Virus record (IMG/VR): IMGVR_UViG_3300032083_001808
Coordinates: 1 to 29,615 of that record
Direction: 5' to 3' (one strand)
DNA: 29,615 bases
Origin: a virus
Under the pieces are notes generated by a model, which did not search any database, was not told the DNA's origin, and was given only the letters and a program-made list of their open reading frames with translations. Each line of letters opens with the position of its first letter. Positions within the stretch are counted from its first letter, which is position 1. Position numbers and translations under genes: made by a program. Shown here in pieces: positions 14,899 through 29,386 of the stretch.

Positions 14899-15441
14899 AT
14901 GGATATCGAAAAATTTTCTAATTTAGAAGTTGATACTGCAAGCACGAAATCAATCTCGGATGCTTGTAATGAAATGAAAAAAATAGAAAAGGAAATCGAA
15001 CAAGCTGAGGAAATTCTTTCCGCAAAGAAAGCTAAATATAAAGATTATCAGGAACGTAAAATACCAGAGTTAATGCAAGAAGCTGGTGTTAACGCAATCA
15101 AGCTTGCGGACGGCACGCAAGTTGAAGTTAAGCCCTTTTATGGGGCTAGAATACCTGAGAGTCGTGTCGAAGAAGCTTTCAGTTGGCTTCGTGAAAAAGG
15201 GTTTGGTGACCTAATTAAAAATACGGTTACAACTACTTTCAATAGAGGACAAGACAATCAAGTTGCAGAATTAGTAAAGGTTTGCGAGAACTTTGGATTT
15301 AAATATTTGCAAAAGCAAAAAGTTGAACCAATGACTCTTAAAGCATTTGCTAAGGAACAAGTTGAAAAAGGAAAGGAACTCCCGTTTGATTTATTTGGTA
15401 TCTATATTGCAAATAAAGCTAAACTAAAAACGAAGGAGTAA
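14899..15441 (+). CDS. Coiled-coil replication-module protein, unknown function (180 aa)
   Basis: The first gene of the plus-strand replication operon encodes 180 residues. Residues about 20-60 form a likely coiled coil (EMKKIEKEIEQAEEILSAKK). A conserved core follows, with IKLADGTQVEVKPFYGARI and WLREKGFGDLIKN, and a VEPMTLKAFAKEQVEKGKEL segment lies near the end. I recognise this architecture from marine podovirus replication clusters, where it is annotated as hypothetical. The helical N-terminus gives a superficial resemblance to Gam-like DNA-end-protecting proteins, but I would not assign that. Its constant place beside the SSB-like gene and primase suggests a recombination or replication accessory role. 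The ATG is immediately downstream of a strong promoter with no Shine-Dalgarno. Confidence 0.75.
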   Translation: MDIEKFSNLEVDTASTKSISDACNEMKKIEKEIEQAEEILSAKKAKYKDYQERKIPELMQEAGVNAIKLADGTQVEVKPFYGARIPESRVEEAFSWLREKGFGDLIKNTVTTTFNRGQDNQVAELVKVCENFGFKYLQKQKVEPMTLKAFAKEQVEKGKELPFDLFGIYIANKAKLKTKE

Positions 15442-24339: not shown

Positions 24340-24528
24340 ATGAGTATATTTGATCGTGTAAGAGATGCTGGCTTACAAGATGTAAAAGACATGAGTGGAT
24401 TGGAACGCACTGCATTCATGAATGATATTTTCTTAGACTACCAAGCAAGTAAAGATCTCCGACAAAAGAAAATGGAGACTTTTTATCTTGAGTTACTCAA
24501 ACAACTTATTAAAGATTATGGGCACTAA
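24340..24528 (+). CDS. Small hypothetical protein (62 aa)
   Basis: The start at 24340 has GGTGG eight bases upstream; a GTG at 24328 and an ATG at 24334 in the same frame are less well spaced. The 62-residue product (MSIFDRVRDAGLQDVKDMS, then MNDIFLDYQASKDLRQKK and YLELLKQLIKDYGH) is helical and charged. Its ribosome site lies in the arm of an inverted repeat. It overlaps the next gene by 11 bases. Function unknown. Confidence 0.55.
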   Translation: MSIFDRVRDAGLQDVKDMSGLERTAFMNDIFLDYQASKDLRQKKMETFYLELLKQLIKDYGH

Positions 24529-24928
24529 TATTGCGACAGAAATATTAAAAACCCCTGATACATCACAGCATAGACTTTTCCAAGCTATAGTGATTCAAGC
24601 GTTTGAGGATTGCTTATACACTTTAGGTGGTAAGAACGAGGCTTATAATAAAAAAGATGCTCATGAGTGGTTTTTAAGTAATAGTAATGATTTTAAAACT
24701 ATATGTGATTTAGCCAATTTAGACGCTGACCATGTACATGAAAGATATAAATGGTGTTTAAAGAATAAGGTGATTGTTTTTACTGAAATTCAATGTTATT
24801 GGATTGAATATAAAAACGAATATAAAAAATATCGAGGAGTAGATACGAAAGAAGAAAGACGTACTATTAAGGAAAGAATCGATCAGATTCGTTATAAATT
24901 AAACTTAAAAGATAAGAAGAAGACATGA
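24518..24928 (+). CDS. Conserved hypothetical phage protein (136 aa)
   Basis: I choose the ATG at 24518 over a TTG at 24488. The 136-residue product contains RLFQAIVIQAFEDCLYTLGG, AHEWFLSNSNDFKTICDLANL and DADHVHERYKW, a pattern I have met in alphaproteobacterial phages as a protein of unknown function. The C-terminus is a charged helix (RRTIKERIDQIRYKLNLKD). It may bind nucleic acid, but no catalytic motif is visible. Start and stop overlap neighbours (ATGA with the next gene). Confidence 0.65.
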   Translation: MGTNIATEILKTPDTSQHRLFQAIVIQAFEDCLYTLGGKNEAYNKKDAHEWFLSNSNDFKTICDLANLDADHVHERYKWCLKNKVIVFTEIQCYWIEYKNEYKKYRGVDTKEERRTIKERIDQIRYKLNLKDKKKT

Positions 24929-26568: not shown

Positions 26569-26954
26569 TGAAATCAGGTAAATATTTAGCAGGCGGGTTA
26601 ATTAGAGGCACTGGTGGTAAAGCTGTAAAATCTTTTATGAAATCAGATATTTATAAAAAACTTAAGGGCGACATGATGAGTAAAATTAATAAAATGTATA
26701 GCTCAGGCCCAGGAAATACTCCAAGTAATAAAACTTTTTTAAAAGGTTTAAAGAAGTTAGATGTTAAAAACCAAAAAGCACAAATGATTGGTAAGGCCTT
26801 AAGTCATGTTGGAGACAGCACTAGAAAATTACCTAGAAATATTCAAGCATCATTAAAAAGAGGTGCTAGAAACATTAAGAAGTACCAAACTAAAATAGAA
26901 GATACAGCTGGTGCTTATTTGAAAAAAAGATTTAGCAAAGCAAGGGATAACTAA
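26568..26954 (+). CDS. Basic hypothetical protein (128 aa)
   Basis: The 128-residue product begins MKSGKYLAGGLIRGTGGKAV and stays basic to the end (SLKRGARNIKKYQTKIED, KKRFSKARDN). Like the two preceding proteins it has an amphipathic N-terminal helix with Gly-Gly and many Lys. It ends in a TAATG overlap with the small terminase gene, so expression is coupled to packaging genes. Function unknown; nucleic-acid binding is inferred from charge. Confidence 0.65.
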   Translation: MKSGKYLAGGLIRGTGGKAVKSFMKSDIYKKLKGDMMSKINKMYSSGPGNTPSNKTFLKGLKKLDVKNQKAQMIGKALSHVGDSTRKLPRNIQASLKRGARNIKKYQTKIEDTAGAYLKKRFSKARDN

Positions 26955-27475
26955 TGGCTCTTAAAGCAAAAGCATTAAGAACAATAGACGATCTGACTCC
27001 AAAGCAAAGGAAGTTTGTAGACATACTTGTAGCTAATTGGGGCGAGATTACAAAAGCCGAAGCTTGTAAAAGAGCTGGATATGAAGCAAAGAATGATAAG
27101 AACTTTTCTGACATAGGTAGTAGATTAACTTTAAGACGACACAATCCACACGTAGTTAAATATTTGGATCAACAGCTTGAAAAAGCTAGAGCTAAATATG
27201 AGAAGGATAGACTACGTAGATACAAAAGATTAGAAAAATATGCTGACAATGCATTTGCAGATAAGCAATATGCATCAGCTATTAATGCAGAGTTTAGATC
27301 AGGCCAACTAGCTGGTTTATATGTAGATAAGAAAGAAGTAAAAGTATCAGGATTGGAGGGTATGTCACGTGCAGAGCTTGAAAAGAAACTCACAGAGCTT
27401 TCAAACAAGATCGATGGATTTAACGCCAAAACGATCGAAGTTAAGCCAGAGACAAAAGAACTACCTGAAAAGTAA
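26954..27475 (+). CDS. terS: Terminase small subunit
   Basis: The 173-residue protein has the typical small-terminase N-terminal domain: LTPKQRKFVDILVANWG, then ITKAEACKRAGYEAK (helix-turn-helix), a serine/Arg turn and NPHVVKYLDQQLEKARAKY. A long helical oligomerisation region follows. It should recognise the packaging site on phage DNA and load the large subunit. An AGGGAT ribosome site lies before the start, which overlaps the previous stop (TAATG). The large terminase is not in the window. Because packaging sites often lie in or near terS, the repeat-rich sequence downstream is of interest. Confidence 0.85.
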   Translation: MALKAKALRTIDDLTPKQRKFVDILVANWGEITKAEACKRAGYEAKNDKNFSDIGSRLTLRRHNPHVVKYLDQQLEKARAKYEKDRLRRYKRLEKYADNAFADKQYASAINAEFRSGQLAGLYVDKKEVKVSGLEGMSRAELEKKLTELSNKIDGFNAKTIEVKPETKELPEK

Positions 27476-27572
27476 TAATTGGACATCTTTCATTACAGTA
27501 TTCAATGAGGTGCACAACACAGATATCAATATTAATTTAGGTAAAATCAATGTTAAGACGGAAGAAAAGTAA
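27414..27572 (+). CDS. Small overlapping protein (52 aa)
   Basis: The frame overlapping the end of terS encodes a plausible protein, YLKSNNWTSFITVFNEVHN then ININLGKINVKTEEK, that extends 97 bases past the terS stop and overlaps the next gene by 23 bases. Start choice is uncertain: ATG at 27414 (52 residues) is used, GTG at 27369 would give 67. The segment between terS and the next gene has no other explanation, which supports it. Function unknown. Confidence 0.5.
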   Translation: MDLTPKRSKLSQRQKNYLKSNNWTSFITVFNEVHNTDININLGKINVKTEEK

Positions 27573-27846
27573 ATATAAACAAGCTGTCGTTGGTGATAAG
27601 AAATATTATTACTACAGAATATATTGGCTTGACCCTTGCGGAGATGCTGGGCATGCAGAAGCCAGTGAAGTTAAAAAACTTAAGCCTGCAAAGATGATAA
27701 CTTATGCATTTATCTTTGATAAAAACAATAAATATCTTTGGACATTTGCGTCTTATGATGAAGAATCGGCTGTGTTCTCCGACAGGAATGTACTACTTAG
27801 ATCTAGCGTAACAAAGATGGAAAGAGTGTTAAACCGATCTGAATAA
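27550..27846 (+). CDS. Conserved small marine-phage protein (98 aa)
   Basis: The 98-residue protein has a basic N-terminus (MLRRKKSKYKQ), then YYYYRIYWLDPCGDAGHA, PAKMITYAFIFDKNNKYLWTF and ASYDEESAVFSDRNVL. This beta-rich arrangement, with the DPCGDAGHA and FSDRNV motifs, is one I recognise from many marine phages without known function. It lies between the small terminase and nuclease genes, so a packaging or DNA-processing link is possible. The start overlaps the previous frame by 23 bases. Confidence 0.75.
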   Translation: MLRRKKSKYKQAVVGDKKYYYYRIYWLDPCGDAGHAEASEVKKLKPAKMITYAFIFDKNNKYLWTFASYDEESAVFSDRNVLLRSSVTKMERVLNRSE

Positions 27847-27849
27847 TTT

Positions 27850-28338
27850 ATGAAAAAGCGTGAGTCTAAGCTCTGGCAAAGAATTAAAAAACACATCACA
27901 AAACCTCATTTTATTCGTGTAGAATCTAATACTATCAATGGTATTCCTGATATTAACGGATGTTGGAGTGGTAAAGAGTTTTGGGTGGAACTTAAATCGG
28001 ACAGAGTTGGATATCCGAAGCTATCTAAATGGCAAATTAGTTGGATAAACAAACGAATCAAACACGGTGGTATAGTTATTATCTGCAATGAGACCCTCTT
28101 GGAGAAGAGTTTGAAACTGTACAGACCGTTGTCCGTTATCCGTGACCCTCGTTTACTGAAACCTCGTGCCTCGTTCTCGTTTCCCGTACAATGGCCACTG
28201 GTCCAGGATGCCATCTGGCAGCTCATGCAGCTGGATCCTGAAGCTCGTTCTCGTTCTTGTGACGAAGAACAACGGATACAGGAAGAACTAATACAGGGCT
28301 CAGGCAGCGTAACGTCAGAGGACTTTAAAGAACTCTGA
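27850..28338 (+). CDS. VRR-NUC family nuclease
   Basis: The 162-residue protein has the VRR-NUC fold of PD-(D/E)XK nucleases: VES with E25, NGIPDING with D34, FWVELKS with E47 and K49, then KLSKWQISW with Q62 and a GGIVIIC strand. Phage members are structure-specific nucleases thought to resolve branched DNA before packaging. The N-terminal domain (to about residue 80) is coded by AT-rich sequence like its neighbours. The C-terminal part, from about base 28090, is GC-rich and contains two copies of the CTCGTTCTCG repeat, encoding ASFSF and ARSRS. This suggests a chimeric 3' end. Confidence 0.85.
   Translation: MKKRESKLWQRIKKHITKPHFIRVESNTINGIPDINGCWSGKEFWVELKSDRVGYPKLSKWQISWINKRIKHGGIVIICNETLLEKSLKLYRPLSVIRDPRLLKPRASFSFPVQWPLVQDAIWQLMQLDPEARSRSCDEEQRIQEELIQGSGSVTSEDFKEL
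28126..28141 (-). repeat. 16-base element GGATAACGGACAACGG, copy 2 (inverted)
   Basis: The minus strand at 28126-28141 is identical to 25508-25523 on the plus strand. Here it lies inside the VRR-NUC coding sequence at the left border of the GC-rich island. Confidence 0.55.
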
Positions 28339-28525
28339 TTCTCGTGTATCCTCGTTCTCGGGGGCCAACTTTTATATCATTGTTTTCCGTTGAGCCCCCT
28401 TCAGGATCTCCTGGCAGCGTACTCTCGTTCAGGAATCCTCGTTCTCGTTCAACGGATCGGTAATGAATACCCCCCTGCAGCACAAGCATCTGGATCTGGT
28501 CAGAGCTGGTAGCTCGTTCTCGTTT
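28170..28525 (+). repeat. Dispersed CTCGTTCTCG repeats
   Basis: Exact CTCGTTCTCG occurs at 28170, 28244, 28351, 28438 and 28513, and once more at 29229. Four of them continue as CTCGTTCTCGTT. Partial copies CTCGTTC occur at 28424 and 29013. All share one orientation (reverse complement: two hexads of AACGAG type). They cross from coding sequence into non-coding sequence, so they are not explained by protein repeats. Confidence 0.85.
28360..28399 (+). other. Strong GC-rich hairpin after the nuclease gene
   Basis: GGGGGCCAAC (28360-28369) pairs with GTTG and GCCCCC (28389-28399) with a single bulged A; the loop is 19 bases. It begins 21 bases after the nuclease stop codon and directly after a CTCGTTCTCG copy. 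There is no T tract after it, so it may stabilise the transcript end or be a processing or protein-binding structure. Confidence 0.6.
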
Positions 28526-28589
28526 GAGGAAAGGAGTATGGTAATGAAGTAATACCATTAGCAGCCATCAGGAGCTGGCAGCCAGAGCT

Positions 28590-28618
28590 TTCGGTACGAA
28601 TGTGTACCTGAACTTTTT
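28590..28618 (+). terminator. Rho-independent terminator-like element
   Basis: TTC-GGTAC (28590-28597) pairs with GTACC-GAA (28604-28612, one bulged T) around GAATGT, followed by TTTTT at 28614-28618. A promoter begins three bases later, so this looks like a transcription-unit boundary. Confidence 0.5.
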
Positions 28619-28620
28619 GC

Positions 28621-28649
28621 TTGACTTATATCCCATCTGGTCTTATATA
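28621..28649 (+). promoter_or_regulatory. Sigma70-like promoter for the right-end unit
   Basis: TTGACT (28621-28626, five of six) and TATATA (28644-28649, four of six) are separated by exactly 17 bases. The predicted start, seven bases after the -10, is G at 28656, the first base of the following hairpin. The sequence TTGACTTAT recurs at 29328-29336 before the next gene. Confidence 0.6.
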
Positions 28650-28655
28650 CATTCA

Positions 28656-28704
28656 GGGCCGCATGTTAGGAGGTAGGTGCAAACCGTAAACTTCAGTGCG
28701 GTCC
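28656..28704 (+). ncRNA. Candidate structured leader or small RNA
   Basis: GGGCCGCA (28656-28663) pairs with TGCGGTCC (28697-28704), eight pairs with one G-U, at the predicted transcription start. The 33-base loop contains a strong AGGAGG ribosome-binding sequence and a GTG at 28677. The transcript would continue to the DUF3846 gene at 28811, making a leader of about 155 bases, far longer than others in this genome. It could be a regulatory leader, an anti-decay 5' stem or a small RNA. I see no match to a known riboswitch. Confidence 0.45.
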
Positions 28705-28810
28705 GTGGTCAAGTCAGTGGACGAGACATACAATAGTATTAAATGCACAGGTATGGTCTGGGCATCACCCTCTGAACTTGGCCTATTAACAACGAACTAA
28801 AGGATAAACA

Positions 28811-29128
28811 ATGAAGACACATGTGATAAAGGACGACGGCACGGTAACCGTGATAGAAGGAAGAATAAAAGAACTGAAAGAAATGCAAGCGCTCGTTAAG
28901 GGACCGATAGAGATTGTAAACGCAGCCATGCCTGCAGCATCGCCTGCGCTGCCTGGTGGGGAGAAGCTCAAGGAAATGATATGCAATGAAGAAGGATTAT
29001 TTAACAGCTCGTTCAAGACTAACGAGAAAGCACGCCAGTTAATAGCTGAAGGATTACACACGCAGCTGGAAAACATACAGGACATTCGCGGTGATGTTTT
29101 CGTCACTGACGGATGGAGGATCGCGTGA
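28811..29128 (+). CDS. DUF3846-like protein
   Basis: The 105-residue protein begins MKTHVIKDDGTVTVIEGR and contains LVKGPIEIVNAAM, then MICNEEGLFNSSFKTNEKARQLI and DIRGDVFVTDGW. This matches the DUF3846 pattern (N-E-E-G-L, N-x-x-A, G-D-V). Members are common in phages and plasmids and of unknown function. An AAAGGA ribosome site precedes the start, within a 13-base leader word shared with the gene at 29387. Its end overlaps the next gene as GTGA. The coding sequence is much more GC-rich (62% in its middle) than most of the window. Confidence 0.75.
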   Translation: MKTHVIKDDGTVTVIEGRIKELKEMQALVKGPIEIVNAAMPAASPALPGGEKLKEMICNEEGLFNSSFKTNEKARQLIAEGLHTQLENIQDIRGDVFVTDGWRIA

Positions 29129-29220
29129 TTGCGTTCCTCGTGCTCCTCGTAGTAATGTGGCCTAATCTCATGCTGCCCCTGCTGGGGATACTGGCACTGG
29201 CAGCCACAGGAGTTCTGTGA
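29125..29220 (+). CDS. Hydrophobic membrane peptide (31 aa)
   Basis: A GTG start in a GTGA overlap, with GGAGGA at 29115-29120 four bases upstream, begins a 31-residue peptide that is almost wholly apolar (AFLVLLVVMW, LMLPLLGILALAATGVL). It should lie in the inner membrane with one long or two short spans around the Pro-Asn. Good ribosome site and coupling to DUF3846 support it. Its coding sequence is 58% GC. Function unknown. Confidence 0.55.
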   Translation: MIAFLVLLVVMWPNLMLPLLGILALAATGVL

Positions 29221-29280
29221 AGCTCTCGCTCGTTCTCGTGAGGAAAAGACTTGTTTAGAATCATTCTAAAGTACACAGGA

Positions 29281-29327
29281 GCTGGCACCAGATGCTTTTG
29301 CTGGTAAAAGTTCTAGGGTTTTTTTAT
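29281..29327 (+). terminator. Possible weak terminator before last gene
   Basis: CTTTT-GCTGGT-AAAAG (29295-29310) forms a short stem and the run of T at 29319-29325 follows after a few bases. The stem is AT-rich, so termination is uncertain. It mirrors the terminator-then-TTGACTTAT arrangement at 28590-28629. Confidence 0.25.
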
Positions 29328-29386
29328 TTGACTTATCGGTGGGATATGATAAGACATTAGGATTAACAACGAACAAAGGAAAGACA

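Follow-up and report, generated by a model that had tools for sequence, protein, structure and literature searches.

In many marine phages akin to HTVC023P, an abundant phage of SAR11 that gives its name to a large group, a cluster of short direct repeats, all facing one way, is a real and strongly conserved feature that adjoins a presumed early promoter. The reading that we prefer, with a probability of roughly 45%, is that the array consists of iteron-like protein-binding sites that control early transcription. The putative sites are polar; their unit, CTCGTT, mostly occurs in pairs with a pitch of 6 bp, giving CTCGTTCTCG, in groups approximately 75-110 bp apart. The putative binder would be a sequence-specific protein, most likely phage-encoded, several copies of which would occupy the sites upstream of a predicted promoter, P1, and the distal site upstream of a second promoter-like block, P2. 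The resulting nucleoprotein complex would switch the early promoters on or off, or insulate them from the terS transcript. The proposed cis-acting module, which lies between terS and terL, would comprise the 3' end of a VRR-nuclease gene, the direct-repeat array and P1.

The window analyzed is a whole IMG/VR record of 29,615 bases, which is only a fragment of a phage genome. Its polA is 62% identical to polA of Pelagibacter phage HTVC023P, and by sequence the window is a piece of an HTVC023P-type marine phage. The region contains the following features:

26954-27475, plus strand: terS, small terminase, Terminase_2 family (PF03592, 26.6 bits against a cut-off of 26.1; phrog_51, E 1.8e-8)
27332-27380, plus strand: synonymously constrained block within terS, near its 3' end (six-codon windows)
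27550-27846, plus strand: small conserved ORF in the gap between terS and the VRR gene (conservation)
27850-28338, plus strand: VRR-NUC-like nuclease gene (phrog_2165, E 6e-15; PF08774, 18 bits, below the cut-off of 23.8)
28078-28135, plus strand: synonymously constrained block with partial dyads, in the VRR gene upstream of the array (codon alignment)
28148-28153, plus strand: single CTCGTT hexamer (word count)
28170-28179, plus strand: CTCGTTCTCG copy 1, in the VRR gene (exact match)
28244-28253, plus strand: CTCGTTCTCG copy 2, in the VRR gene in the other frame (exact match)
28351-28360, plus strand: CTCGTTCTCG copy 3, abutting the stem-loop (exact match)
28360-28399, plus strand: stem-loop GGGGGCCAAC...GTTGAGCCCCC, directly past the VRR stop (fold z -2.87)
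28424-28429, plus strand: single CTCGTT hexamer (word count)
28438-28447, plus strand: CTCGTTCTCG copy 4 (exact match)
28513-28522, plus strand: CTCGTTCTCG copy 5, 108 bp ahead of the P1 -35 (exact match)
28621-28649, plus strand: P1, predicted promoter (TTGACT, 17 bp, TATATA; from conservation, the spacer with TCCCATCTGGTCT being conserved)
28811-29128, plus strand: DUF3846 (PF12957), early-type gene past P1 (30 bits against a cut-off of 27.5; phrog_3777)
29125-29220, plus strand: 31-codon hydrophobic reading frame with a GTG start (read from the sequence; region aligned in relatives)
29229-29238, plus strand: CTCGTTCTCG copy 6, distal, 99 bp ahead of the P2 TTGACT (exact match)
29254-29270, plus strand: operator-like dyad TTTAGAATCATTCTAAA (pattern in representatives)
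29328-29356, plus strand: P2, TTGACTTATCGGTGGGATATGATAAGACA, conserved promoter-like block in which the -10 is not clear (conservation)

The 31-codon frame overlaps the end of the DUF3846 gene and possibly encodes a membrane peptide.

Counting over all 29,615 bases recovered the six exact copies of CTCGTTCTCG reported in the preliminary description, at 28170, 28244, 28351, 28438, 28513 and 29229, and their single orientation (six on the plus strand, none on the minus strand). The decamer is the most frequent 10-mer of the window and was found in none of 100 dinucleotide shuffles. As terS ends at 27475, the array starts 695 bases past it, in agreement with the distance of about 700 bases given earlier, and the GC-rich island said to surround it is also evident (GC of 0.47 in 28001-29000 vs 0.30-0.39 in the rest of the window). 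The copies do ignore gene borders: the first two sit in the 3' end of the VRR-NUC-like gene, where they are read in two different reading frames, and copies 3-6 lie outside that ORF. The hexamer CTCGTT occurs 15 times on the plus strand of the window, 14 of these between 28148 and 29229, and six times on the minus strand.

The array is conserved across the clade and strand-polar. A search with the VRR protein identified 105 stretches that encode a relative, and each of the 80 contigs retained carries at least one exact decamer on the VRR coding strand, down to 57% protein identity; one stray reverse decamer was present among them (in L023). Searching with the protein encoded by 28811-29128 yielded 33 further loci, some on contigs already found, three of which lacked the decamer (L096, L098 and L118). 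A blind scan at the DNA level for pairs of decamers separated by 10-40 bp returned at least 120 stretches and 118 new loci; among the matches listed, 95 of the 118 encode relatives of terS, VRR or both, with the motif on the same strand. The remaining 23 listed loci have neither gene, and the 20 with a GC content of at least 0.50 look like unrelated repeats, the other three lying at 0.40-0.44. The possibility that the motif is equally frequent elsewhere in the genome did not hold: all 16 long records have the decamer in a single place and a single orientation, and a reversed-word control gave no match in them. A scan of cellular genomes for motif pairs gave at least 120 matches but pointed to neither a cellular counterpart nor a host: among the 80 loci listed (L250-L329), none codes for a protein related to any of the 12 proteins of the window that were compared, and 33 contain runs of four or more perfect tandem hexamers. 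Searches of the open-licence PubMed Central literature (covering the decamer, HTVC023P, and pelagiphage packaging, terminase and repeats) showed no paper with a title or summary that describes the array. The letters of the decamer occur in 86 papers, and the 15 of these listed by title and abstract deal with unrelated subjects. In a report on HTVC023P-type genomes, the words ‘promoter’ and ‘noncoding’ are absent from the main text, and the uses of ‘repeat’ examined there concern curli proteins (PMC9599517).

The level at which selection acts was examined using a codon alignment of 77 representatives of <90% identity, drawn from 137 distinct genes (136 from the loci and that of the window). Mean synonymous identity was 0.89 for the eight motif codons vs 0.64 for the 150 others, and the motif codons had synonymous identities of 0.77-1.00 in the subset of 43 representatives to which only the protein searches had led. 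The synonymous conservation in two frames, the confinement to one cluster and the clade-wide strand polarity indicate that selection acts on DNA or RNA, as had been supposed, and not on protein; a protein-level account of the in-gene copies was rejected in view of the two frames and the synonymous freezing. The block at 27332-27380, among the top six-codon windows of terS (+0.22 to +0.33 above the amino-acid mean), may be a second DNA-level element, and the block at 28078-28135 in the VRR gene is possibly a cut site or an operator. The partial dyads of the latter take forms such as GAGACCCTCTTGCAGAGG in some relatives, and sister loci (L370-L381) carry TGCGAGAG..CTCTCGCA at the place matching it.

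At the level of sequence, the working unit is the hexamer CTCGTT. In 145 kb of array regions from the 77 representatives, 1,040 copies of it run in sense and 21 in antisense, as compared with 12 and 43, respectively, in 203 kb of upstream DNA; absolute densities are inflated because 34 of the 77 were found via the motif itself, which accounts for neither the polarity nor the exactness of the motif. The sense strand holds 323 exact decamers vs 124 one-mismatch forms, the antisense strand none and two. Pairs of CTCGTT have a pitch of 6 bp in 323 cases, 7 bp in 72 and 8 bp in 17. Groups of sites have a median spacing of 88 bp (interquartile range 78-107), with a median of three groups per genome near the VRR end.

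The position of the sites relative to the promoters argues for a regulatory function. P1 has the appearance of a strong sigma70-like promoter. The closest CTCGTT lies 74-165 bp upstream of the -35 element (TTGAC) for P1 in 55 of 62 cases and for P2 in 31 of 38, vs 22% of random positions, and none of the 62 or the 38 has a CTCGTT within 73 bp upstream, where 22% would be expected; the representatives counted are kin, hence non-independent, and the P1 and P2 patterns were derived from the same loci. In loci with a duplicated or displaced P1 (L111, L114, L115, L116 and L117), a CTCGTT stands 81-157 bp ahead of every copy. There is therefore a preferred distance between site and promoter, as for promoter-linked operators, to which isolated copies in distant subclades are exceptions. 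Many isolated clusters in those subclades lie inside apparent coding DNA with no promoter near, a TTGAC at a distance of 60-125 bp accompanies only 17 of the 41 clusters that stand isolated downstream, and two of the six window copies fall within the gene upstream of P1, as much as 450 bp away from the promoter. The dyad at 29254-29270, TTTAGAAtcaTTCTAAA, is <200 bp ahead of P2 in 32 of the 38 representatives that have P2, mostly 10-27 bp past a CTCGTT. Sense-biased, GC-rich words, e.g., CAGGAGCTG (70 sense, 7 antisense), are found in 28560-29310 of the window, and such words fill the variable DNA that separates the motif from the promoters. A conserved control block, with exact, frozen putative sites beside a presumed early promoter, would offer a concrete experimental handle.

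The same arrangement might act in RNA, with CUCGUU repeats bound by an RNA-binding protein, or serving in termination or processing, in the 3' part of one transcript and ahead of the next. The motif is always in sense and lies towards the ends of presumed transcription units, and there are some stem-loops near it. The GGGGGCCAAC...GTTGAGCCCCC stem-loop is kept in aligned relatives and matched by a loose pattern in 28 of the 77 representatives; no T run follows it. However, shuffling the flanks makes the motif only slightly less unpaired, and the antisense strand is about equal in this respect. Nor was there a systematic terminator signal ahead of P1 or P2 (mean z of -0.87 and -0.45), or any Rfam match at the gathering score in the window. 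An RNA-level role is accordingly considered improbable.

In the sister clade, other repeats occupy the same slot. The decamer is present in none of the 80 loci around HTVC023P-type terS (71-99% identical to that of HTVC023P), all 80 being included in the decamer search and 76 in the word counts. Tandem Repeats Finder was applied to 40 representatives of 61 sister loci, and a different array was found right past the VRR stop in 24 of the 40, vs 4 of 40 control stretches, no array being detected in the other 16. The sister arrays have periods of 30-130, mostly 56-66 (i.e., units of approximately 58 bp). A P1-like match, TTGAC..TCCCAT, follows at 240-383 bp in 24 of the 40 representatives and is wholly absent in 14. 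HTVC023P itself has three 58-bp copies directly past its VRR gene. HTVC027P has GCTTG heptamers past a VRR-like frame and, on the other strand, CAAGCTT-type repeats that abut the TTGAC of gp33 and gp34; the portion of PMC12753301 consulted describes these two genes as highly expressed, early to middle. In 023Pt_psg01, a VRR-like frame that is not annotated (MW574966, approximately 15020-15395) carries GCTCGCTTG-type repeats in its 3' end, and five GGGCCCACCC copies are found in the same island. In the freshwater relative DSL-LC04 (OR003939, 9547-9833), a GC-rich island next to terL contains heptamer repeats of the CACGGCC type.

As judged by these comparisons, the place of the repeat is conserved and its word is not. 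Since the corresponding spot holds other repeats in the sister phages, the array is probably a fast-changing control or packaging switch. A more speculative proposal, which we consider rather unlikely but worth stating, is that the fixed slot from the VRR gene through the array to P1 is a hypervariable address block, in which the word is swapped as a whole between lineages (CTCGTT, units of approximately 58 bp, GCTTG heptamers or GCTCGCTTG runs) and a rapidly diversifying protein-DNA recognition pair sets lineage identity. Such a block could decide whose early genes or genomes are recognized in a co-infected cell, and the natural series of swapped words would make recognition specificity testable by comparison.

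The sister arrays also bear on the suggestion, made in the preliminary description, that the copies are remnants of a selfish repeat. The array is short, GC-rich and repetitive, and pure CTCGTT runs exist in cellular genomes, as would suit a functionless remnant of a selfish or slippage-grown repeat. However, the copies are 75-110 bp apart with variable sequence between them, not head-to-tail, and they share one orientation, one locus, a frozen decamer, synonymous constraint and a conserved place at which sisters carry unrelated arrays. Such an origin is very improbable.

Packaging is the principal alternative, a possible though on balance less probable function of the array. In this scheme the small terminase would bind the polar hexamers and the terminase would cut nearby, perhaps at the dyad block of the VRR gene. 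The array occurs once per genome, is polar and starts 0.7 kb past terS, and the constrained block with partial dyads is just upstream of it. TerS belongs to the Terminase_2 family, presumably that of SPP1 G1P, and direct repeats near such a terS are a mark of SPP1-type pac sites. In addition, the records of three relatives open with unrelated genes of the replication side, as expected if the genomes were circularly permuted. However, the TerS recognition helix, as presumed from the family, varies among motif-bearing phages, whereas the decamer does not. The 3' ends of contigs show no accumulation at the array, albeit in a coarse comparison as contigs are fragments, and packaging predicts neither the promoter-linked spacing nor the HTVC027P repeats upstream of early genes. 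As described in the available part of PMC4737164, the pac of SPP1 contains direct repeats and extends over promoters as well as the beginning of terS, no boxA repeats like those of SPP1 are found in the related phage SF6, and the SF6 DNA-binding domain has little preference for the repeats. The preliminary description left regulator and packaging sites side by side; regulation is now favored because of the promoter association, and packaging was shown by none of the tests run. For the partition-like role also proposed there, no partition gene came to light incidentally. If packaging nevertheless proved correct, the array would be a candidate pac site for the HTVC023P-type group.

Direct repeats beside a promoter also resemble iteron origins, and the array could by analogy be a replication origin primed from P1. 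Several direct repeats in one orientation, lineage-specific and at a fixed place, fit this idea. Against it, GC skew does not change across the array in six long pieces, so that the switch in strand composition expected of an origin was not seen; the polymerase gene lies approximately 7 kb away from the array, and the genes for helicase and primase 9-10 kb away; and no initiator gene was recognized among the neighbors scanned, several of which are ORFs without a family. We regard an origin as about as improbable as the RNA-level role.

Under the preferred reading, i.e., protein-binding sites that control early transcription, a binder would most likely be expected among the phage proteins. Two small genes lie ahead of terL, at L245:8854-9180 (p108) and L245:9104-9415. 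Among the 119 motif loci in which terL is within reach, 115 have the former, and neither gene was found in the 80 sister loci (43 with terL in reach). p108 was not named as the binder, as its model is poor (pLDDT 71, five sequences) and one clade difference can explain the pattern. The protein encoded by 24488-24928 gave a good all-helical predicted model (pLDDT 92), with no PDB match at E 0.001 or better and one viral match at that level; it was likewise not named.

Several known systems resemble the array in part. The stoperators of cluster A mycobacteriophages are short and asymmetric and face one way with respect to transcription, as here, but are distributed genome-wide, whereas the present sites occupy one locus and no repressor or integrase was recognized in the proteins tested. 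Iteron arrays of plasmid and phage origins consist of several direct repeats that adjoin a promoter and all point the same way, with lineage-specific sequence; the array shares these properties but has an irregular spacing of 75-110 bp, no recognized initiator gene and no skew change. The pac sites of SPP1 and SF6, as far as the available part of PMC4737164 describes them, likewise have direct repeats with a terS of the Terminase_2 family and promoters close by, the repeats differing between related phages. Here, by contrast, the array is downstream of terS, in and past the VRR gene, and one exact decamer is kept clade-wide. The pac of phage P1 has hexanucleotide repeats in a small region partly inside a gene. 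We know of no methylation signal for the present array, unlike that pac. Both have hexamers in a small region partly within a gene, but those described here are spread over approximately 1 kb and lie upstream of an early-type promoter.
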